Below are positions 37,813 to 55,012 of a stretch of DNA of 64,000 nt, in pieces. The stretch is from Schizosaccharomyces osmophilus. Lineage: Eukaryota; Ascomycota; Schizosaccharomycetes; Schizosaccharomycetales; Schizosaccharomycetaceae. How positions within the stretch are numbered: position 1 is the stretch's first letter; every line of letters starts with the position of its first letter. The stretch is from contig NC_079238.1 of assembly GCF_027921745.1 (NCBI RefSeq), positions 3,472,001 through 3,536,000 of the forward strand. The letters run 5' to 3'. The notes beneath the pieces were generated by a model that worked only from the letters and a program-made list of their open reading frames with translations, made no database searches and was not told where the DNA came from. The translations under genes were made by a program, and so were the position numbers.

Positions 37813-38654
37813 GCGGATCTTCTTGAGCCTTTTACCAAGTTTTCAATTTTGTCTTTCTCCTTGATTCTTTTCGGTAGGTTTTCCTATGCTTCATCGTCCT
37901 TACGATTTGTACGCTCCCTGCTTTCTTTTAAGTTCAAGTCCTCCTTTTTCTTCTTTTTCTTTCGTCATACGATTTTACAACCTGTCTTTTTTTGACGCGG
38001 TGTTTCCATTAGAATCGTCTACGTTTACGAAAACGAAAAGCCTCATCTTGAATGCGAGTTTCTTGACAGGTTTATCTTTTTCATGGTTAGATCATGAGCT
38101 AAGCTGTTGTCATAGTAGACTTTCTTGCTGCAAATTCCTTTGAAGCCCGTCACAATGACAGATTGCTCTCAAGTCTTACAATCAATTCCTTTTTTACTCT
38201 TTTCGAGCTTCCGGCATTCCCTTTCTACATAATCTCCCTTCTCATATAACAGAAAATATCATTATTTCTAAAACAGTCGGTTTGATACACTGAACATGTT
38301 CGCGTAGCAATAGTGTAATAAAAACAAAGTGGCCATGCCGGTATTCCATCACAGGATTGAAAAATCGTCGTATGAATGTTGTATTACAAACCACTTGGTT
38401 ATTTTAGTTGTAAAATTTAGACAATATAATGTAGATTTTATTGAAAGTATAGTATGTATTCGTGAACCTTCACTACATATCAAGCAAGGCAAATTCAAAA
38501 GTCTAGTATATGTGTTCTTTCACACATTACGTATGAAAACCACCAGTAGAGGTGAAATTAAAAATCTGTCGGTGTAAATAGGTTATGGAAATAAAGAAAG
38601 GAATCTATTCAAAAGATTTATAAGTGAATATCTTTACCACAGTCAACCTTGAAC
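37813..38654. other. Intergene qcr1-frg1
   Basis: 3' flank of qcr1 (T/C-rich) and promoter of the FRG1 gene. Small ORFs show no family resemblance. On the inversion model this is near the left inversion breakpoint. Confidence 0.5.
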
Positions 38655-39555
38655 ATGCCTTCACGTTTAACTTTCAAAGGGGATAAAAAAGTGTACGTTA
38701 AGCTTTTTATCAAATGGTTTATTTCAAGATTCTAACGATGCATTTCTTACAGTCACAAAAAGGGAAAAAAATCCACAAAGTCTTTACAGTCAGCTGTGGA
38801 GTCTCAAAAGAATGATCCAATATGGATCGATGCTAACACCATGGAGGACCTCCATGGTCCACTGGTGTTATAGTATGTTTCATGAATTTCCGAGAAAACA
38901 ATTTAGCTGACGGTTCTTTAGCCAAAGGCTCGATACCATGGTAATTTCCTTGGGAATAGAAGAGGTACAAGGAAGTTGCGTAGGAATTTTTCTGGATCCT
39001 CTTTCTTTAGAACCTGACAACACAAGACAAGTATTCGTCGCTTCCGATATGAATGGTAACGTTGTCCTGAAAAGCTTCCTTATGAAGTATCTTTCTGCTG
39101 GCAAAGAGGGAGACTTGTTCAGCAGACGAGAAGCCATTGGAGCTGAAGAACAGTGGCAGCTTGAATACTTACATGATGGCTATTGGGCTTGGAAAAGTAT
39201 GTCTAATAACAAATACCTCGAATGCTTGCTAAATGAAAACGACACCTACGTGTTTCGCTGTACGTCTGATACGGTTACTTTCACTTCAAAATGGAGAGTA
39301 CGAGTCCAAACTAGATTCGTCAAACGACCCTCAACTCAGAACATAAAAACATCTACTGTACATTCTCAGCAATTGGAAGCTATGTATGTTTAATGACGTT
39401 TAATTTTCTCAAGTCATTACTAACGATTTTACAGGGCTGGCAGGCCGTTATCTGCAGATGAAAAAAAGGCTCTTAAGCAGGCTAGCAAAGATGGTTCTCT
39501 ACATGAAGCTCTGCTAGACGTTCGAGTCTCAAAAAAAAGCGACAAATATGGGTAG
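38655..39555 (+). CDS. FRG1-family RNA-processing protein, four exons
   Basis: A 246-residue FRG1-type protein (nucleolar, pre-mRNA/rRNA processing-linked actin-binding family). Hand-built exons: 38655-38692, 38753-38872, 38922-39383 and 39435-39555. Introns are 60, 49 and 51 nt with GTACGT/GTATGT/GTATGT donors and TCTAACG, GCTGACG and ACTAACG branch sites. Joins read GDKK-V-HKKGKK, PLVL-Y-QRLD and LEA-M-AGRPL, all in frame. The N-terminus LTFKGDKKVHKKGKK is a family hallmark; DPIWIDANTMEDLHGPLVL leads the beta-trefoil (fascin-like) fold. The 38-nt first exon makes this gene easy to miss. In S. pombe it also adjoins orc4. Confidence 0.88.
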
Positions 39556-43235: not shown

Positions 43236-44965
43236 CTATATTGGCAGATCATCGGACGCAGCGTATAGAGTATTTTTCCAGCTTTTAAGCTGAGAATGCA
43301 GTGAAATCAGTTCATCTTGCAACGATGAAAAATTAGGATTTTCCGTTTCGTTATTATTGTAAAAGGATGCAACTTTTTGGTATAATTTTTTATACTGAGG
43401 ATACGTTTCCCGAAAACGCAATGCTAATGCCTTTATTTCCTCCGTAGTGTATCGTTGCTGTCTTCGTTTTTTTGGCTTTGATATATTTTGTTCTTGTTTT
43501 TGGTGCTGGTTAAAGGTGTCTGACACATCACCGGACGAATGAATGCCCGTGCGAGCACTGGCTTGACTATAAGACGGAGAATATGTTTTTCGCTTACCTT
43601 GAGGAGACGACAAATTTGAATAATTAGCGGAAGAAGTAGGTGAAGGTATATCAGAGACAGGAGTGCTCATGTTCCCTGGATCACTTAAAGAGACAGCTGA
43701 GCTTTCTGAACCAGTGCGAGACAAATTGGTTGAAACTTTATGTTGGAGAGAAGACGGAGGTGAATCAGTCGACGAGGAAGATTTTGGAAATTTTTGGTGA
43801 TGAGAATGTGAGTTGTTGCTTAACAATGGGTGTGAAGAGGTAGAAGAAGGTAAATTAGTGTCCACAAAGGAGGGAGCCAAGACCGATGAAGTAGGAGCAT
43901 GATTAGATAGCATTCTTTTATCGACATTGTGTTTTGACAGCGGATTTGCTGACTTTTTACCTGAACCTAGGGATAGACGCTCTGGCGCATCCTGTGGTAG
44001 ACCTAATTCATTAAAGGCAGAAGTAGCCCGCTGGATTACAGTGCGCCGATCAGCAACACTGTAAGGCCGCCAGTCGTACACTCTGATGTCTTTATAAACC
44101 TTTGGAAACAACTCCCACTTTCCTAGTTGGTTTTTCCGAGCAATATCTGGCAGTAAAGAACGTAACTCAGCAGGTAGAGCTTTCGTGCGTTGCAAAAGGA
44201 CATCCTCCTCTTCTGCGGCGACAGCTAACAATTGAACAACCCTGGAACGAAGATCCAAACGACTTTTCAAAGATGAAGAAGAGGAGGATGCTGGGTAATC
44301 AGAGGACGATCCAACGTGTGCAGGTGGAGATGATGAGCGAGTTGTGACTGATGAAGACAAACTATTGTGAGCGGATGGTTTTGAAAAAGGAGATGAATTT
44401 AGGGGACGGTGGGGCTGCTTTTGAATTAATCGATGCGTTTTTGGTTTTTGAGAGTTTTGGGTAGACTTTGCAGCCGTATCATGAAGGGTAACAATTCTAT
44501 AGATGGTCAGTTCAGAGCTCAATAATATATTTACACATACCTTTTTTCTTCTTTTTCTTTTTGCGCTTCTTTTGTTCTACTCTTCACTCGTTCTGCCATA
44601 CGGCTATCAAATTCTCGACGCAATTGGAGACGTTGATATACTCGGCCCACAAGATGGAGAGATCGAGATTCATTCAATCTATACACTTCATGAGGTGCCG
44701 TTTCTGGAATCGAATTACAGGTGTAAGACCTTCCTCCGGTTATGACGGACTGTAAAAAAAAAGTTAGTTATGCAGTCAAGAACGCACGAGTTACACTTAC
44801 TACGCCGGAATCAGTGCAGTTTAGATGAATATTTTCCAAGGTTCCTGCAAGATAATTTTCAAGAAACTCCTTTGGCAACTGCACTGACATTAGCAGGGGG
44901 GATTCCTCCTCTGTTCCATCCACTGTTACAGGAAGAGCATCACGGATGCTTTTTTGTCTAATCAT
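43236..44965 (-). CDS. ell1: RNA polymerase II elongation factor ELL, three exons
   Basis: A 544-residue transcription elongation factor that works with Eaf1 to stimulate RNA polymerase II. Hand-built exons: 44801-44965, 44541-44749 and 43236-44496. Introns (51 and 44 nt) have GTAAGT and GTATGT donors and ATAACTAACT and AACTGACC branch sites. Joins read TDSGV|SVITGG and EEK-R-IVTLHD. The C-terminal about 75 residues match the occludin/ELL domain ([19 protein letters not shown] ... [16 protein letters not shown]). The middle is Ser/Pro-rich and disordered. Length fits S. pombe (about 533). The 5' exon start is the first ATG; an earlier start upstream was not found. Confidence 0.88.
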
Positions 44966-45480
44966 TCGAAAACGACGGAATTCGAAATATTGATATTTCT
45001 TTTCTTCCTACAAGCCAAGCGGTTTTCTGGTGGAAGGCCGGTATCCTCAGTATAAATGATCAAGGTAAAGACAGAGTCTAATTTTTCTAACCCTCTTGTG
45101 CTCTTGCTAAAGGCAGACCCAATGTAAGTGAAAAGTAACATAGGTAGCACATGTTAACTAAGGTCCATGCAAGAGTTGGAAATTTTTGTTGATTTTTCTT
45201 TTTTTCTATTTGTTTGCTGAATATAAGAAAGGATGTTCGTTGAGTAATAGGAATGATTCTTGTATGGGTGAAAGTTTCCTTCGATTTTGATTCAACAATA
45301 CGTGTTTGTTTACTTCTTGTGTTGTGTAAACAAGCAGGAAAAGACATAAGAAAAACTGCTGTCTGAAATATGTTCTTTTATCTTTTATGTAGGGGATCAA
45401 ACAAAGCCAAAAAATAAGTTGAAATATATTTACACAAGCAACAGATGTCCATTCGCATTCCACTACTTCATAAATAAAAA
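44966..45480. other. Intergene ell1 - tRNA-Asn
   Basis: Promoter side of ell1 and 3' flank of tRNA-Asn; A-run at 45475-45479 is the Pol III terminator on the minus strand. No gene seen. Confidence 0.5.
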
Positions 45481-45553
45481 CGGTCAGAGTGGGGCTCGAA
45501 CCCACGACCTCATGATTAACAGTCATGCGCACTACCAACTGTGCTATCCGACC
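45481..45553 (-). tRNA. tRNA-Asn (GTT)
   Basis: A 73-nt tRNA. Acceptor GGTCGGA pairs with TCTGACC (one G-U) plus discriminator G. The anticodon stem CATGA/TCATG encloses the loop CTGTTAA, anticodon GTT. The T-loop GTTCGAGC is intact and no intron is present. A TATA-like TATAGTTAT lies about 30 nt upstream, as fission-yeast Pol III genes usually have, and a T-run follows. Confidence 0.95.
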
Positions 45554-45704
45554 TTTTACACCCATTGTCTTCAGGAAAGCATAACTATACAGAATGTTGG
45601 AAAGGACAACCCAGAAGCTTGCCGGCGTTGCCAAACAGTATAAAATAGACAGCTTCAAAGGACACATACTTGGGTGTATGTGAAGGTAAAAAAAATAAAA
45701 GAAT

Positions 45705-45775
45705 TGCTTCGGCCGGGAATCGAACCCGGGTCGCTTCGATGGCAACGAAGCATTATACCACTAAACCACCAAAGC
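45705..45775 (-). tRNA. tRNA-Gly (GCC)
   Basis: A 71-nt tRNA. Acceptor GCTTTGG pairs with CCGAAGC (one G-U) plus discriminator A. The anticodon stem CTTCG/CGAAG encloses the loop TTGCCAT, anticodon GCC. A TATATATCTATAT-rich element lies 25-40 nt upstream and a long T-run follows (A-run 45688-45694 on the + strand). Confidence 0.95.
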
Positions 45776-46407
45776 AGTAGTTAATTACTTTACAGGGCTA
45801 TACATATAGATATATATTCATGAAAGGGTATCCCAAGTGCTATATGGATGAAAGCTGAAGTAAAAAGTTCACATAAAAAAAAACCGTTGTGAAACTCGTT
45901 TTTCATACTTAAAGAGTCCCAAGAATTTCAGGAATTTTTGCAATTTATCATATATCTCAACTCAAAAAATGCTTACTTGTGTATTGTTTGACGGGGCATC
46001 CATATCAATTATTGTAATAAATTGAAGTAGCAAGTTAGCAAGGACAAAGCTATGTGTGCTATGTGATTTTGACAGAGAAAGCATCGTAAATTATGTATTG
46101 TTCTTTGTTTTTTCAAGTGTAAACAAAAGACTTGTGTTACTTGGCTATTTGTGACTTGACTATGAACAAAGAGCTGCGTAAGGAAAGAGAAAGAATTGTG
46201 TTTGAGGCAGTTTATCTCTTTTAGTATCATCCAAATTGATCTTTTTTTATTGTATCTTTAGTGTTTTAAATTGAAAAAGTAGTATCGATTTTATACCTGC
46301 TATTACTCCCCAATTAGCATCTCGTCACAGTTTACAAGTTTCTCGTCCAGGAAGAAACTTTACTAATTTGGCACCGTACCTTGATCATCTTAATACTATT
46401 TTTAATA
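45776..46407. other. Spacer tRNA-Gly to wtf locus A
   Basis: Upstream side of tRNA-Gly (TATA elements) and 5' flank of wtf locus A, with a FLEX-like box at 46119. No first exon of the kind seen in locus C was recognised. Confidence 0.45.
46119..46129 (+). promoter_or_regulatory. FLEX-like (Mei4) element upstream of wtf A
   Basis: GTAAACAAAAG matches the first nine bases of the FLEX consensus GTAAACAAACA bound by the meiotic forkhead factor Mei4. It lies about 350 nt before the DLEKG-coding segment, the same spacing as the element at locus B. Confidence 0.5.
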
Positions 46408-47123
46408 ATGTCAGATAATTCAAGCACAACTACTTCAAACCATCTCGCTAATGCATTCAATGTGGATTTAGAAAAGGGAATTCCAATGGACAAAGTAAGA
46501 GATACAGAAAGTCCGGCAGATAAAGGCTCTTTTATAGTCAATGAGGACAGCTTTGAGAAACCTTTTAAATTCAGTGGTTGGAACAGCTTTCAAATCTCCT
46601 TGAGGGAGTACGCTACTAACGCTTCCAAGCTAATAAGCTATTACTTCCCAGTAAATTTTAGTGTAAAAAAACAGAAAGTGGTTAAATTTAATTCTGGAAT
46701 CTTGTCGATTTTTTGCGTATTCGCAGCATCGAGCTATTTCCAAGTTCCTACCTACATGTTCAAAAACTATTTTCAAAATAACCTTTATTGGAAATTCACG
46801 GGAGCTTTATTCTCACATTTTTTGTTATATACATGGTTATATGAATCTCTTGTTTGTTCGTGTTTTTATAGTCGCTTATTTTTATTTGTTTACGAATTGC
46901 TAACGACATACAGCATCTTTTCTAGTTGTTCTCTACGCGGCAAGGGGCATCATGGTTGGTTTATCAATTTTTATGATAACAATTGGATTACTTTCAGCTT
47001 CTCTTCTGTGTTGGACATATAACAATGTAATTATTTACTGTTTTGGATTACAAGTTGAACAAGCTACGAATCGGCGAGATATGGATTCAAAAAGAATGCA
47101 AACAGACGATAATCATAAGTGAT
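46408..47123 (+). pseudogene. wtf-family locus A (probably broken)
   Basis: A member of the wtf family, spore-killing meiotic drivers (poison and antidote from one gene) in Schizosaccharomyces. Parts seen: an N-terminal block with DLEKG and hydrophobic segments (46408 to about 46860), and a downstream block with two hydrophobic segments and a polar tail (about 46926-47123). An intron with a CTAAC branch site could lie between them, but I cannot model a clean complete gene. The region around its start matches, in phase, the second exon of locus C. No PY motif is seen. It is a tandem, diverged paralogue of locus B. It could be a degraded copy or a gene I cannot model. Confidence 0.5.
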
Positions 47124-47418
47124 ACAAGGCTTTCGGAAAGTCTAAACCATTCTCAGATTTTTGCTTTATACTAGCAAAGAGTGCAATTTGTTTACTATTT
47201 ATTTAGCCTTGTATTTTCTACTTGTCTATATAGTAATATGTTTCAACAGTCATTGAGTCAATAAACTGTTGATTTTAGCTAATGCTCTTTATCTGCCTAA
47301 GCGCTTTTGTGATAACGTAATTTCAGTAGTTGAAAAATGTAAAATGATTTACAATTAAGAATTATCCAAAGACTTTCATCCATTTTGGAATTCAATGAAT
47401 GGTATAATTGCTGAAAAC

Positions 47419-47450
47419 CTGGTTTGTTTACAAAAATGTAAACAAACCAG
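47419..47450. promoter_or_regulatory. Perfect palindrome of two facing FLEX boxes
   Basis: CTGGTTTGTTTAC, a 6-nt AAAAAT spacer, then GTAAACAAACCAG: 13-bp perfect inverted arms. Each arm contains GTAAACAAAC, the first ten bases of the Mei4-bound FLEX consensus. It precedes the DLEKG segment of wtf B by about 350 nt. Confidence 0.7.
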
Positions 47451-47749
47451 AAATCGCAAGTGTCACTTGTCATTGTAACCCAACACCGTAAGCGATGCGA
47501 AATTTCTTGACAGGAGCAAACTTCCTCTTTCTTCATTTCTTTGCCAATTCGATTAATTTTGCGTTTCTTTTAACTTGCTGGAATGATATAATAGAATTGA
47601 ATTCTATTTGGGTGTGTTTTCATTCGATATTTGGTTTTATCGTGATTTGGGAAGCTTGCGAGCAGGAGAAATTCACAGTTGCTCTAGTCTATTGCACTTG
47701 TAGTACTGAAGAACCATTCAAGTTTACAATAATTTCAAAGATTTATATA

Positions 47750-48539
47750 TCAAGCAATCCTCCTGCATACCATGCCAATGTTTATGATGATGATCTCGAG
47801 AAGGGACTTCCTTTGTACACACAACAGGACACAAATAAATCACCCAATTCAGGTTCTTTAAAAGCCAAAGAGAAGAAAGATATAGCAATGGATCAACTTG
47901 GCGATTTTTATTCCTTTTTAGATGAAAGGAAACGTGAAGCTTCACAATTCCTAAATCGGGAATTTCCCGGCAATGTAGTCCTTAAAGAGAAGTTGCAACG
48001 ACTGTTATCTACAATTATTCCCTCTTTGGTGTGTGTCTATGCAATATCTTGCTACTTCCGAACATATACTTTTCTAGTCGATGGCGATGGCATTAAATAT
48101 TTGGACAAGTAGCCCTTGGATCCTCTAATGATTCATGTTGTGATATTCATAGTATTTGTAGCTGCTTTTTTTTGTGAGTTCAACCATATCCAATTTATCG
48201 ATACATTTGATTGTTTACTAACAAAAATTTTAGGCCTTCATTCATATATTCTCGGGACTAATAGGACTGCTTTATGTGGTCATCTTGATGGGTTGTGTCC
48301 TTCCATTCGTTTTCAGTGCTATTGGAAAAATCATTGGTATGGTCGTAGGTACCTTGATGTACTGTGTAGGTACCATAATGTGCGGTGTGGGCTATGTATT
48401 GTATTCCGCTCTTTTAGCCTGCCTTGGTTTAGATTTTTTTAGCTCAACAGATCACACGAGAGCGCCTACGCTTCCCAGCTACCAGCAAAGAGACAGTGCA
48501 CTGGCTCCTCCACCGACGGATATTAATCCTACTACGTAA
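47750..48539 (+). pseudogene. wtf-family locus B (broken)
   Basis: A wtf-family relic. Parts seen: an N-terminal segment with PPAY, DDDLEKG and LPLY motifs (from about 47755), a long hydrophilic-to-hydrophobic middle block, and a 3' block of hydrophobic segments (about 48234-48539) after a good CTAAC branch and acceptor. It looks interrupted at one or two places, so it is treated as a fossil. Upstream is the double FLEX palindrome. PY motifs ([LP]PxY) are reported in wtf antidotes, where they recruit NEDD4-type ubiquitin ligases. It is closest to locus A in layout; protein-level divergence suggests an old duplication. Confidence 0.55.
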
Positions 48540-49011
48540 ACTCATTTCCCTTCATTTGTCTTTCTTTTCCCTAGTTTGTTTGGACTCTTCCGCTAACGCT
48601 GATCGCAATCGCTCATGAATTGCTTTGATGAACCATTATTTATATTCCTTTTGTTTTTGGCTATTTCAGACTCAGTTGAAAATGGACTGAAACTAAGAAG
48701 GAATTTTGTATTAATATGAAATGATGACCGCAATTATAAGACATGCATTTTGATTTCTCTCCTCCCAAAGGCAATGAGTTGGTATGAGCGCGGGAATTGA
48801 GAATGCAGCCTTACTGCAAGTACTCTTCTATATTATGCCTAAATATTATTGTTGCATTTCTGTTGCGGATGACTGTGGTTGCCTTTTTTTTGCTTCGTGT
48901 TACTTGCTAATGAGCGTCTCACAAAGAGAACGAGAGAAGTATTCACAGGCATGAATTTACTTAACAAGTCAAAAAAGAAATTAAAAAAACGAACAGCAAA
49001 AAAAGAGTGGG
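48540..49011. other. Spacer wtf B to 5S rRNA copy 1
   Basis: No gene recognised. The last few bases (A-run about 48997-49003) serve as T-run terminator of the minus-strand 5S gene. Confidence 0.5.
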
Positions 49012-49130
49012 AGCCTACAGCATCCCGGATTCCCATGTTGTCTCCAACCATAGTACTAACGAGACCCTCAGACGCTTAACTGCAGTGATCGGACGGGAAC
49101 TGGTGTTTTCGCCTAGGTATGGCCGTAGAC
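49012..49130 (-). rRNA. 5S rRNA (copy 1)
   Basis: A complete 119-nt 5S rRNA beginning GTCTACGGCCATACC and ending GCTGTAGGCT, matching Schizosaccharomyces 5S, including the internal control region (GTTAAGCGTCTGAGGG). A TATAT element lies about 24-28 nt upstream (49154-49158) and a T-run follows. In fission yeast 5S genes are dispersed and transcribed singly by Pol III with an upstream TATA, so this copy looks active. Confidence 0.95.
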
Positions 49131-50227
49131 ACTTGCAGTAAGTACGTCCAGCATATAAAAGGAAGGTTCGCTCCTTCATCATTGTTAGCCGACTTTTTGA
49201 TCGGTGGTTCTTTAATGGTCTTACCGCCAAGTTTGTTCATTTGCACTGCTCACAAATCTTTTGGGAAACATATCTGCTGATGTGTTTAATCCTGCTGTAC
49301 ACTATTTGAGAAAGGAACGTCCCAACTTCGGTCCTTGAAATGGCAAGTATGTGAGTTGAGCAGATGCCGTTGGTTTTTTTCGGTATGTGAAAACATCTGA
49401 TTGAAATTTAACAAGAAAAACTCTCTTAGGAGACAAAAAAAGCCCAGATGCAGCATGTACAGAGAATGCATACTGAGAGGAACATCTTTGCTACTTGTGA
49501 AGGAACATGCTACCTGAAGGGAAAAGGTTACAAGGAATTAATATAAGGAAAGCCTTGACCAGCAGAAATGAACGCCGAAAGATGCATGAAAGTGAAGCAG
49601 AGGTTCACTAGAACTAAATTTAGTTGCTGATGTTGCATCGCCAGTTCATGTTTCGATGATGCGTGTTGAAGGGCCGTTTCCCATCGCTGAGACACGCGAT
49701 TGAAAAATTTTCGTAGTTCATATGCGACTCTCATACTGTTTCGAAGGAAAAGCCTTGCCTTTACAACTCGATTGATCTTCCTGAATGAATTAATGCTTCA
49801 TATACCAATTTTGTTTACCGCATTCCTGGACTTAGTAACATCTTTGCAGATCATAGATTAGGATTAGAATCAATTGCAAGTATATACATCTCTGCAACCT
49901 TCATCAAATGTTCTGGTCAATGTATGGACAACGCTATGAACACTGATGAAGTATTCGCTATGAAAATAGAAGCAACGAAATTCATTTAATAGTAATAAAT
50001 TAAGATGAAACGAATGACAAGATTCATGAAAGAGTGAAAGAAAAACAAATAAATAAAACCATGCTAGATGCAACGTTTCCTTGCTTGCTGCGCGCGATTC
50101 TTTTTGATACGAATATAGGAACTTGGCGGACTGTAATTAGCATCGATGCTTCCAATGATGGCGCGAAAATCGAAGAAGAAGTGAAAACGGTTTCGACAAG
50201 ACTACAGAAATAAATAAACATGAAATC
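49131..50227. other. Spacer 5S copy 1 to wtf C
   Basis: About 1.1 kb without a recognised gene. Contains the TATA of 5S copy 1. Short ORFs at 49528-49734, 49870-50073 and 50024-50221 show no wtf or other family motif; remnants of older insertions cannot be excluded. Confidence 0.4.
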
Positions 50228-51330
50228 TCAAAATTCAGTTCTTTGGTCATCAAGAGGTTGAAGTTCGATTTCTTCGTTCGAATGTCTCTCATCTTGAGCA
50301 TTAAATTTTTCTAAATAGGTTAATAATATATTATGAGAGGAAAAGCATCCAAAGAATACATACCAAAAGTACAAGACAAAGCATTTGCTAGACCGCTTAT
50401 GCCCTTTGCTAAACCGCTTATGCCGTTTACTAAATTTGAATTCATGCATTCGCGTGCCTTTTGATTTGCTAGAACAGTTAGGATATTTTAAAGTCATACA
50501 CAACATACTCGTCAAAACAAGAAATAAGAATGTGTTTATTGTGATAAAAATCAACCAGTAAACAGCGGGGTTCAAATTTTCAAACATTCCGTACTTCTTC
50601 AGTCCAAAAGATGAGGCTAAACAGAAGGCATCGAAAACAACTGTATGGAATGCTGCGACAAGCATATTGCCTATCAATAATTCACACTTTATTGAATTTA
50701 TTGAATTTATTGCAATTGAATCTAATAGTTAGTCAGTCGTCCAAAATATGGACATTGCTGTCTTACCTGCTAGAAGCAGCATCACAGATGTAATCGAACC
50801 GCCAAAAAGCCCCCAATGGACTTGCGCTTTCACAGGAAACTTGTAGACGAAGAATAGTACATAAAAACAAACCAAGGACAAATAGAAGCCGAAAATCAGA
50901 ATATACGATAGGATTACAAAATTCTCCAAAGCCCTCTTATATTTATTTGCGGATTCTTCAGCGGAACTCTGAGCGGGTCCATCAGCCATCTCCAAATCAA
51001 TGAATTTGTATGAATCTAAAGGATGTATTAGAAGTAATTCTTTTCGTTGTATACAAAAGGATAAAGGTGTTGGCCATGTTTGTTATAGCAATCGACAAGG
51101 TTATCAGCCCCAAAACAAACAAACAAACAAGATTCGTCCCGTAAACATGCGGCAGATTTTAAAACCTTTTCCCATGCACTTAATCAACTTCTATTTTCTT
51201 CCCTATTTGAACACTTCTTACCTGAATATGGAGGCGGTGTGCCATCTGAAGATTGAATGCCTGACTTTTCATCATTGAGCGTTTTATAGGAGGCTTCCGA
51301 ACTCGAAACGGGAGCGTAATTATTCTTCAT
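50228..51330 (-). CDS. wtf-family gene C, three exons, apparently whole
   Basis: Predicted meiotic-driver-type protein of 266 residues. Exons: 51222-51330, 50767-51015 and 50228-50670; the reading phase is kept across both joins (109+249+443 = 801 nt). Introns have GTAAGA donors and consensus acceptors. Exon 1 starts MKNNYAPVSSSEASYKTLND, like S. pombe Wtf, and ends in a PPPY motif exactly at the donor. Exon 2 opens with IDLEM, the DLEKG position, followed by hydrophobic segments; its Met could begin a shorter isoform. Exon 3 has more hydrophobic segments and 7-codon repeats (FSKRHKR). A forkhead core GTAAACA lies in intron 1 (51141-51147, opposite strand). Drive activity is not shown by sequence. 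Confidence 0.7.
50381..50434 (-). repeat. 21-nt tandem repeat in wtf C
   Basis: Two nearly identical 21-nt units (50414-50434 FSKRHKR, 50393-50413 FSKGHKR) and a partial third (50381-50392). The 7-codon unit equals the size of the variable repeat in the last exon of S. pombe wtf genes (from memory). Confidence 0.75.
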
Positions 51331-52230
51331 CTTTACAATGGCAATGCAAAAAAAAAGCACCTAGATTCGCAGTCTAGACAAAAACAACTAGAATCACCAA
51401 GAAAAGTCCGTAGGAACTGGTTGCACTTTTCAAGAATCTGTCGAAAAAGGGAATTGAGCCTCGCTTCAAAAAAGAAAAAGAATATTCCAAAAGGGCCTGC
51501 CCGTCAAAACCAAAGATGCGAGTTTGAAAAAATCTTGGTAGTGGCCTTTCGCATGTCTCAATCATAAAAGCAGCGACATTGTGTCACTGACTGGTCACAG
51601 TCCTCATTGCGATTTCTCGTAATAGTATAATCCAAAAGAGTCGTCGTTTATTACAAAAAGTAAACAAAGGAAGTTTGAGCAAAGAAATCATGCTGGTTGC
51701 TTTGAATGATATTAAAAAGGGTTTGGAAATGCATATCTTTGTATTGGAAGGTTCAGTATTTTTTATTTAACAAGTTCTACAGTTTTCGTTTCGTTAATGA
51801 GATCTTGAACATGAGAATAGTTGGTCCACTGGTATAAAAGCAGAATCCCAATTGAATGAAAAGACGAAATAAGTTTTTGTGATAATACTTTACTTTGTGC
51901 ATTCATTTATTTTAATTTAATTTAGTTTGATTACACGATAGAAACAAACAAAAGCGATTTCGGACTGTTCATTCATTGTAAATATATATAGAGTAGCGTA
52001 CGCTTACTAGCTATCGGTATGTGTGTCAGAGAGGGTGGATGACAGCTTCACCTCTGCAAAATTCTAGTCATTGCCATTGTGGACTCGATTCATGTAGTTG
52101 GGAGTTGTTATAAACTAGATTTATATTAAGCTTGTTAGTCGGATCAGATGTGTGCTACTGTTTTGAAAGTTCTGACATGAATTTGGGTGTTTACTGCCTA
52201 TTTGAGTAGGTTTTGAAGGGATTTCAGAAA
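51331..52230. other. Divergent region between wtf C and wtf D
   Basis: A 900-nt head-to-head spacer. A FLEX-like GTAAACAAAGG at 51660-51670 is preceded by a partly mirrored GTTTATTACAAAAA, recalling the palindrome at 47419. TATA-like TATATATAGAG lies near 51983. No gene seen. Confidence 0.5.
51660..51670 (+). promoter_or_regulatory. FLEX-like element between wtf C and D
   Basis: GTAAACAAAGG, matching the first nine bases of the FLEX consensus; 330 nt upstream of the wtf C start and 560 nt upstream of wtf D. Confidence 0.4.
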
Positions 52231-53137
52231 ATGATTGAAAAAAACAAATACAAAAAGCTAAAAGATGCTGATTCAGCTGACGTTCCTCGCTTGGGCACTC
52301 TTGCAACGTTTGACGGTGAACTGCCACGGTACAATGAAATCTTGAATTCTCATCTAGACGACTTGGAAAAAGGTCATGCACCTCCGTACTCAGAAAACAG
52401 ACATCAAGAAGCGTCTACCAACATGACAGGAGGAAGCGGATTCTTTATTCTTTTGCGAAATGTCTTGACGGCATTATTGTGGTTAATTTTCTGGCCGGCA
52501 AAAATTGTGAGAATCCCCGAAGCACAACGCAGACAGGAAAATGAAACTGCTCGGCTTAGTTTTTGCTTTATTCTTTCGGTCATAGTAAACTTTTGGTTTT
52601 CTTACAAATACCTTGTCCCCTTTATAAAGGAATCGATAAAAGAATCTGTAGGGGTAAAATTTCAAGCTACTGTGGCAGCTGTTCTTGTCGTCATGACTTT
52701 CTATATGTTCTTATTTGTTTTTTCACGTAAGTGGAATGGTGGGATTTTAATTTGTTATGTTTACTAATGGGGTACTTTTAGTGTTGGTGGATTCAATCGT
52801 TATATTGATTCCTCTAGTTTTTTCTGGGATTTCCTCGCTTTTTTCAGGAATTTTTTCTGGGATTTCCTCGTTTTTCTCTGGGATTTTTTCAGGAATTTTT
52901 TCTGTGATTACTAGTGCTCTAGGCTTCAGGATGTCATCGGATAGAAACGACTTGACGGATGATAATAGTATCCCATTAAACAGCTTGCCACCAGAGCCTG
53001 AAAACCAGTTCAACGATCGTAGTGATGATACTTTTAAACAACCGTCCTCTGAACATACCTCTGAACATACTGAGCAATCTCCAGGGTTACGCCAGGAACC
53101 GGGTCAGTCTAGGGATGTTGAAAGCGGTGGGAATTGA
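52231..53137 (+). CDS. wtf-family gene D, two exons, apparently whole
   Basis: Predicted 283-residue wtf protein. Exons 52231-52726 and 52782-53137 join in frame; the 55-nt intron is GTAAGT...TACTAATG...TTTTAG. The N-terminus (MIEKNKYKKLKDAD) resembles Wtf starts. LPRY, DDLEKG and PPYSEN motifs follow at about residues 32-55. Hydrophobic segments lie at about 70-90, 108-130 and 140-165 and again in exon 2, which carries a Gly-rich FSGI repeat and a polar tail. Unlike gene C there is no intron after PPYS, so the place where S. pombe drivers keep the separate poison promoter is missing. It might be an antidote-type or atypical member; this is inference. Confidence 0.72.
52820..52909 (+). repeat. 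33-nt tandem repeat in wtf D
   Basis: Two 33-nt units (52820-52852 FSGISSLFSGI, 52853-52885 FSGISSFFSGI) and a partial third to 52909. The 11-codon unit equals the size of the variable repeat described for an internal exon of S. pombe wtf genes (from memory). Confidence 0.75.
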
Positions 53138-53476
53138 TTTATTCGGAAAGTAAAGCATCATTTTCTTATAATGTCCTGTCTTTTCGATTTTTTCTCCAGC
53201 ATGCTTTTGCTTATGTTTATGTTTATGTTTCATCTTTGCATTTTGTATTTTATATTTATTCGTCAAGCACTTTTTTAATAATGATCCTTATAGAATCTTT
53301 TATTTTCTAACTAATAAGGAATATAATTAATTATTGAATCATGGATGAGCGTTGCTTTTTCTATAATCATTAGTATCACTAAGTCAAACGTCTATGTCGA
53401 TCACGATTAAAGCCATGTGCTTCAATTTTTAAAAGAGCAACAGAAAAACAAGTCAAAAAGGAAACCAAAAGTGAAA
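53138..53476. other. Spacer wtf D to 5S rRNA copy 2
   Basis: No gene. Contains a short TTATGT microsatellite at about 53212-53231. Confidence 0.5.
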
Positions 53477-53595
53477 AGCCTACAGCATCCCGGATTCCCA
53501 TGTTGTCTCCAACCATAGTACTAACGAGACCCTCAGACGCTTAACTGCAGTGATCGGACGGGAACTGGTGTTTTCGCCTAGGTGTGGCCGTAGAC
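53477..53595 (-). rRNA. 5S rRNA (copy 2)
   Basis: A complete 119-nt 5S rRNA, one base different from copy 1 (GGCCACACC instead of GGCCATACC near the 5' end). A TTTT terminator sits directly at the 3' end. No TATA-like element is seen 20-40 nt upstream (53615-53635), unlike copy 1, so its expression is less certain. Same strand as copy 1; the pair brackets wtf C and D. Confidence 0.93.
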
Positions 53596-53748
53596 ACTAC
53601 CCATGTGTAGAATTCAAATCTGTACTACAGGGCATCAATTTGCTTTTTTGCTGGTTTTCCACAAACCAGATGTAAAACCACTTTCGGCGGTTTTAAATAT
53701 AAAGGAAAACCGTTTAAAACACATTATGTTTGTCTTTAAACAACAGAA

Positions 53749-53830
53749 GACACTATGCCTGAGTGGTTAAAGGGATAGATTAGAAATCTATTGCGGTCTC
53801 CGCGCGCAGGTTCAAATCCTGCTGGTGTCG
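53749..53830 (+). tRNA. tRNA-Ser (AGA)
   Basis: An 82-nt class II tRNA. Acceptor GACACTA pairs with TGGTGTC plus discriminator G. The anticodon stem ATAGA/TCTAT encloses the loop TTAGAAA, anticodon AGA. A long variable arm (GCGGTCTCCGCGC) is present, as is the T-loop GTTCAAAT. A T7 terminator follows. No intron. Confidence 0.95.
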
Positions 53831-55012
53831 ATTTTTTTCTTTTTCCCCAAGTCTTTGCTCTCTAGGACAAGCAAAATTTTCTAACAAGAGAATGTAATGA
53901 CAAAGAACAACAGTTCTTTTGCTTTGTTTTGCTGTACATTCTTTGTACGCGCCGTTGCCCGGCCCATCTCACAGCATCGACCTTTTTTTTCCATAAGGTT
54001 CATGTGCTCTCAGACGGGACAATCTCGGTTGCTTATTCGATCTTACGGTAACAGCGGTGTGCGGAACATCTGTCAAACGTGTCACATTGTTCCTTGGCGG
54101 AGTATTATGGGCCAATAATTGAACGGAAGGTGTCTCGTCTTGCACCCATGGAACAGTCATTCGTCAGGTGCTAAACTTTCATAAACCAATCCCCGACAAG
54201 CAAAAAACCCTAACCACATCGAAGGATTATACAACCGCGGCCTTCCCATGCCTTTCATTGTTTACCTTAGCCAAACTCATTTCACTCTTTTGTTTCTTGG
54301 GAAAATTGCAGTAAAATACCACATTTTTTGGTGATTTTCACGCGTATTATTCTCTTTTTCACTCTTTTGATTTCTTGTCTTTCTTTTATTTTTATTTTTA
54401 TTTTATTTTTTCCTTCTTTTTTTGGAATTTGATTCCCTTCCTTTCGTTTTCTTCCTCGCTGTTTTGTAGGTTGTAATACATCGTCTTTCGTTTTTATCTT
54501 AACTTTCTTTGTATACCCTCGTTATCTTTTGGTAAGCTATCATTCTTTGTTGAGGCTTATATTGAAATTTATTTCTTCATACGTGGCTGGACTGACTTTC
54601 ATTCCTTTTAAATCCCCGTATCCCCAAAACTTTTAAGGAATTAAAATTTCTTCTTTTCTATACCAATAAAAAAAAACTATCGTGTCTCTGCTTTCTTGAG
54701 CATATACGATACCTTTGACCGATTCGTCAATCGTTTACACCGTGTTTCGTTAAACGATTCTCTGGTCTATTTCTGAATCAATTCTTTTTGTTTTTGAATT
54801 CCTGTATTTTTTACGCGCGTTTACTGCGTTTTCTTTGATTACTATTTCTTTGTTCTCAAGACTCTATAAGGTCGCTTACGTTTTTGCGTTCACGATTCGT
54901 TTTCGTTCATTCTTTTACAGTTGTCCTCGACAATTCTTTGAATTTTTTTAAAGTCACTCTTTTTTTTCTATTTCTATTTACCTTTTTGTTTACTATTTTG
55001 CTTTAATTCGTG
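53831..55012. other. Long T-rich region upstream of the TOS1-family gene
   Basis: About 1.18 kb. From about 54290 on it is strikingly T/C-rich on the + strand, suggesting a long pyrimidine-rich promoter or 5' UTR. An MCB-like ACGCGT lies at 54341-54346. The ORF at 53897-54118 has no family resemblance. Confidence 0.5.

Follow-up and report, generated by a model that had tools for sequence, protein, structure and literature searches.

The interval between positions 45481 and 53830 of a 64,000-nucleotide stretch of the Schizosaccharomyces osmophilus genome (contig NC_079238.1, positions 3,472,001 to 3,536,000; the window in what follows) is probably a real selfish-gene island, which carries one probable gene of the wtf family of spore-killing meiotic drivers (locus C) together with a companion gene (locus D), and not four wtf genes. 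An earlier note on this DNA had proposed a four-member wtf cluster made up of loci A to D. From this proposal the wtf-linked nature of the island stands, and so does the assignment of C, on the basis of its structure; the structures of A and B do not fit, and D is probably a wag (wtf-associated) gene. The explanation that we consider likely is that the island consists of a wtf-wag unit (C and D) flanked by 5S ribosomal RNA (rRNA) genes plus an older, decaying pair (A and B) from a separate family of membrane proteins, C being a single-gene poison-antidote driver. The features are collected in Table 1.

The exon model of C was drawn before the comparison with the coordinates of S. octosporus wtf25. 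Consensus splice sites delimit exons of 109, 249, 213, 105 and 83 bases, separated by four introns. Exon 1 ends in PPPYS and contains the one PY motif that the protein has (the canonical motif being taken as [LP]PxY), an ATG lies in frame at base 27 of exon 2 (51015 to 50989), and exon 4 holds a repeat of 7-residue period (coding bases 606-656; residues ISGLAKG/ISGLANA). These are the characters published for wtf genes outside S. pombe: De Carvalho et al. describe five exons, a start in exon 2 in most of the genes and an association with 5S genes, and they report that exon 4 carries a 7-residue repeat in S. octosporus and S. osmophilus (PMC9562144). In Zheng et al., the intact wtf genes of the three species other than S. 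pombe encode antidote tails with a single conserved PY motif (PMC10721834). Two of the characters, the 109-base exon 1 and the position of the exon-2 ATG, agree to the base with wtf25 (PMC11892871). There the poison starts at exon 2 base 27, and the exon 4 repeats occupy bases 505-534 in the poison and 640-669 in the antidote, an offset of 135 bases from which an exon 1 of 109 bases follows. C differs from these relatives in the repeat unit itself, which is ISGLAKG-like and not of the published IGNXXXG pattern (PMC9562144). Taken together, its characters are in keeping with S. osmophilus, S. octosporus or a close relative.

The two 5S genes of the island are direct repeats, 99% identical and 4465 bases apart, as would be expected of a 5S-mediated duplication, and they stand on the two sides of the C-D pair, as described for wag-associated wtf genes (PMC9562144); the order 5S, divergent C and D, 5S makes up a unit that spans about 49.0-53.6 kilobases (kb). 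This 5S-wtf-wag-5S layout supports the attraction of the wtf family to 5S genes that had been claimed earlier, and all five RNA polymerase III (Pol III) genes then listed in the island, three for transfer RNA (tRNA) and two for 5S rRNA, were confirmed. D, a gene with a single phase-1 intron and the motifs DLEKG and LPRY, points away from C and occupies the interval between C and the upstream 5S gene, which is the place and orientation reported for wag genes beside wtf (PMC9562144). An ATG within the intron of D opens a 126-codon frame (52757-53137) that continues past the 3' splice site and into exon 2. A search of viral contigs with exon 1 of D rendered eight stretches that fit a pattern and no relatives. 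Gene anatomy, repeats and layout, like the density of Mei4 sites described below, are direct observations on this DNA.

The transcription, toxicity, neutralization and drive that we infer for C would proceed in a way already known from its relatives. A long meiotic transcript starting upstream of exon 1 would encode the antidote, with PPPY in its exon-1 tail; this motif would recruit an Rsp5/NEDD4 ubiquitin ligase, and the antidote would leave the Golgi for the endosome and vacuole. From intron 1, a short transcript would give a tail-less version of the same membrane protein, starting at the exon-2 ATG, and this poison would reach all spores, killing those that had not inherited C. S. pombe wtf4 (PMC9762604) resembles C in having a long intron 1 (230 bases, against 206 in C) and a sense TGTTTAC upstream of the poison start. 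In C, this 7-base forkhead core lies in the wtf4 orientation 158 bases before the exon-2 ATG (50989), whereas in wtf4 the distance to the poison start is about 110 bases; moreover, wtf4 has a 9-base core (PMC9762604) and intron 1 of C only the 7-base one. A single TGTTTAC in the 206 bases of this intron is too common an occurrence to be taken as proof.

Several points weigh against these assignments. C is a probable wtf gene by structure and not by direct alignment to wtf sequences, and five queries covering A to D gave no match to the WTF model of Pfam; the closest S. pombe-S. octosporus pair is itself reported as only 16% identical (PMC9562144). The 109-base exon 1 of wtf25 is not a published length but one implied by two published coordinates. 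FLEX elements occur in intron 1 in part of the wtf family; intron 1 of C contains no 11-base FLEX element at up to one mismatch, a trait that it shares with the 31 intact S. osmophilus wtf genes of the survey, none of which is recorded there with a confident FLEX in this intron (PMC9562144). Introns 3 and 4 of C can be read through, which gives a longer frame without the modelled exon 4. Codon scores are ambiguous for exon 2 of C, and those of exon 3 are no better than noncoding. Finally, the family name of D, which we infer, comes from its place and orientation and not from alignment to wag sequences, so that D is probably, by analogy, a wag gene.

That there is coding sequence at all four places, as the earlier note had it, was confirmed. 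In the regions of A, C and D, which were those taken into the spliced-frame test, the longest spliced frames (218, 283 and 287 codons, respectively) exceeded the maxima of 100 dinucleotide shuffles per region (108, 158 and 146), and at B the codon scores of the core and of the last exon were gene-like. Codon scores also supported both exons of D and exons 1, 4 and 5 of C. They were weak for A, which, like the scores of exons 2 and 3 of C, counts against a confident model, here of A and there of the middle of C. The intron of A has a non-standard GTTCGT donor. It can also be the case that A and the middle of C score poorly as fast-evolving membrane genes.

The 9-base Mei4 core GTAAACAAA occurs 11 times in the 64 kb, 8 of them within 45200-53900 and 7 within 45481-53830; the left edge of the former interval is 281 bases wider and takes in a site at 45305. 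Shuffles of this 8.7-kb interval contained 0.25 cores on average and 3 at most, and none of the 500 reached 8. The other noncoding DNA (19.8 kb) held 2 cores against 0.58 expected, and a control string, ATAAACA, was not significantly enriched in the island (69 of 500 shuffles as high). The only exact 11-base FLEX of the window, GTAAACAAACA, lies between the ell1 side and the first tRNA gene. Cores precede both A and B and are present in the divergent C-D interval as well. The enrichment predicts that the island is expressed in meiosis, a prediction drawn from sequence. A sense TGTTTAC is also present in the introns of A, B and D (46886, 48211 and 52758, plus strand) as well as in intron 1 of C (51147, minus strand); it is absent from the three remaining introns of C and from all of 14 intron-like strings elsewhere in the window. 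Since it overlaps the branch site in B and D, little weight is given to it, and a role of the copies in A, B and D as wtf4-like poison promoters was discarded because of this overlap and because the copy in D overlaps the in-frame intron ATG.

The four loci are less alike than had been thought. Their uniqueness within the window held, since tblastn searches with A, three pieces of B, C and D found no further relative (other matches, E of at least 0.19), but the motif set said to be common to them did not: DLEKG, which occurs three times in the six-frame translation of the window, always in island loci, is present in A, B and D and not in C, and [LP]PxY is present in B, C and D and not in A. 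A and B are the only clear homologues (31% identity over 113 columns, tblastn E 4e-10; 30% by MAFFT). Neither tblastn nor profile comparison related C significantly to any of the other three loci, and profile comparisons aligned only 13 columns around DLEKG between A+B and D (probability 2%) and 15 columns between A+B and C (probability 1%). That all four are nevertheless wtf genes, A, B and D being divergent and poorer in introns in the manner of the odd S. pombe wtf7, wtf11, wtf14 and wtf15, would agree with the DLEKG common to A, B and D, with the PY motifs of B and D, with a repeat in B that resembles IGNXXXG and with the location of all loci among Mei4 sites. We regard it as very unlikely. 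Each of A, B and D has a single late intron, and none of them has the five-exon structure or an antidote-only exon 1; they lack significant similarity to C and any WTF match, and the odd S. pombe class is absent from the other three species as far as the 2022 survey describes them (PMC9562144). The tdk driver family was set aside on descriptions, A to D being multi-span membrane proteins with no supporting Pfam match.

B, which had been put forward as a gene, has a gene-like core but is broken and is treated here as a pseudogene: there is no ATG at the point where A starts, an in-frame TAG is found at 48110-48112, and the frames flanking the predicted intron do not join. An extension upstream to an ATG at 47495 was ruled out, since 47495-47749 scores -0.116 (intergenic median, -0.098). 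Downstream of these lesions, an 83-codon frame with hydrophobic segments (48288-48539) is still open. In the last exon, a 21-base repeat at 48337-48388 has a 7-residue period (VGTIMCG type) that recalls the wtf repeat IGNXXXG (PMC9562144); by structure, B is not a wtf gene.

The core of B matches the Pfam family DUF999 (PF06198) at E 0.0045 and 0.0042 in two cuts, with 97 residues aligned to positions 7-111 of the 143 in the profile, and none of five shuffles of the core gave any match. It is possible that A, by its homology to B, and B are DUF999 members left at an internal chromosome site, and their location among Mei4 sites may be compared with the presence of several S. pombe DUF999 genes among the Meu5 targets screened in a study of spore formation (PMC7712723). 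We nevertheless find this doubtful. The score of B (17.4-17.6 bits) is below the curated cut-off of 25 bits, A and D have no match to DUF999 in Pfam, and shorter cuts weaken the signal, the last 70 residues of the core giving E 0.079 and the first 53 no match. Moreover, the last exon of B matches the unrelated bacterial membrane family PspC equally well (E 0.0043 and 0.02), which indicates that E-values of this size can be compositional. DUF999 is labelled as specific to S. pombe, where all ten genes are near telomeres (PMC7712723, PMC6048312); A and B have housekeeping genes on both sides within the 64 kb. A relation of A and B to DUF999, possible on these profile matches, is thus a lead and not a finding. 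Other weak Pfam matches of pieces of the loci (PspC, DUF447_N, DUF4870, Holin, MFS_Mycoplasma and others) were attributed to chance or composition.

It can also be the case that A, B and D are all wag genes, D being paired with C, and A and B being relics of an earlier unit. All three carry DLEKG, A and D share a single late phase-1 intron in a similar place, and the C-terminal half of D matches the last exon of B at E 7e-4, a value obtained without composition correction. This match is, however, rich in glycine and hydrophobic residues, the A+B and D profiles align at DLEKG only, as given above, and A and B are not paired with any wtf gene here, for which reasons we keep this origin of A and B as a tentative option. 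A broader proposal, that wag, DUF999 and wtf form one fission-yeast superfamily, whose meiotic membrane proteins would have DLEKG/PY tails and repeats rich in glycine and in which A, B and D would be drive-related genes under the same control by Mei4, appears to us improbable. If it were true, A, B and D would be suppressors, antidotes or a second poison-antidote system, and S. pombe DUF999 would be an unrecognised conflict family.

The wtf-wag unit and the decaying pair stand between housekeeping genes, which were identified by Pfam as CybS (sdh4), Peptidase_M16 (qcr1), FRG1, Orc4 and TOS1, together with a kinase, PSF1, an actin-family protein and Rpb2. The closest Protein Data Bank (PDB) entry to the product of qcr1 is 8q1b (E 1.6e-276), which we take to be the S. 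pombe protein. The stretch named ell1 (43236-43913, minus strand) has no match in Pfam; its name comes from the earlier note, and the gene-order argument fits it. In the window, ell1 adjoins TOS1 and is separated from qcr1 by FRG1 and Orc4. As for S. pombe, genes.12 and.13 of the SPBP23A10 series are presumably frg1 and orc4, and.10 is presumably the SCY1-like kinase ppk32. A kinase table sets.10 against NPR1/PRR2 (PMC2078597). The TOS1 orthologue is SPBP23A10.11c, ell1 is.14c and qcr1 is.15c (PMC6170507, PMC5990653, PMC3691139), a numbering according to which ell1 adjoins qcr1 and is two genes from TOS1. An inversion of FRG1-Orc4-ell1 would produce the order seen in the window and place the island in one of the two junctions, and the comparison over 35189-59859, in which part of the S. 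pombe order is assumed, suggests such an inversion. The other breakpoint that would follow from it (37813-38937) shows no similarity to the island at E 1. A centromere inversion by recombination between 5S genes has been proposed in these species (PMC10085805).

Table 1. Features of the island and its edge, in window coordinates
Feature	Position	Strand	Description
Exact 11-base FLEX GTAAACAAACA	45303-45313	minus	only exact one in the window
tRNA-Asn(GTT)	45481-45553	minus	Pol III gene
tRNA-Gly(GCC)	45704-45776	minus	Pol III gene
Mei4 core GTAAACAAA	46119-46127	plus	289 bases before the ATG of A
Locus A	46408-47122	plus	exons 46408-46855 and 46914-47122; 218 amino acids; DLEKG, no canonical PY
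Two inverted near-FLEX sites	47421-47448		upstream of B, one mismatch each
Locus B, pseudogene related to A	47750-48539	plus	predicted intron 48174-48233
5S rRNA gene	49012-49130	minus	downstream of C, same orientation as C
Locus C, probable wtf poison-antidote gene	50228-51330	minus	five exons, 252 amino acids, spliced model
C exons	51330-51222, 51015-50767, 50721-50509, 50468-50364, 50310-50228	minus	all introns phase 1
C exon 4 tandem repeat	50384-50434	minus	21-base (7-residue) unit, 2.4 copies, 90% matches
C intron 1	51016-51221	minus	206 bases; the poison promoter is expected here
C exon 1	51222-51330	minus	109 bases, antidote-only tail, single PY motif (PPPY)
Mei4 core GTAAACAAA	51660-51668	plus	divergent C-D promoter region
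Locus D, probable wag gene	52231-53137	plus	exons 52231-52726 and 52782-53137; 283 amino acids
D tandem repeat	52818-52898	plus	33-base unit
5S rRNA gene	53477-53595	minus	beyond D
tRNA-Ser(AGA)	53749-53830	plus	Pol III gene

If the window belongs to one of the published reference genomes, the existing wtf and wag tables probably list C and D already. The analysis tells one probable driver apart from three look-alike neighbours of other structure, and the role of the companion genes becomes testable because the whole island carries Mei4 sites. Moreover, this wtf-5S island lies at an apparent breakpoint of gene order, and repeats of this kind may have helped to rearrange the chromosome.

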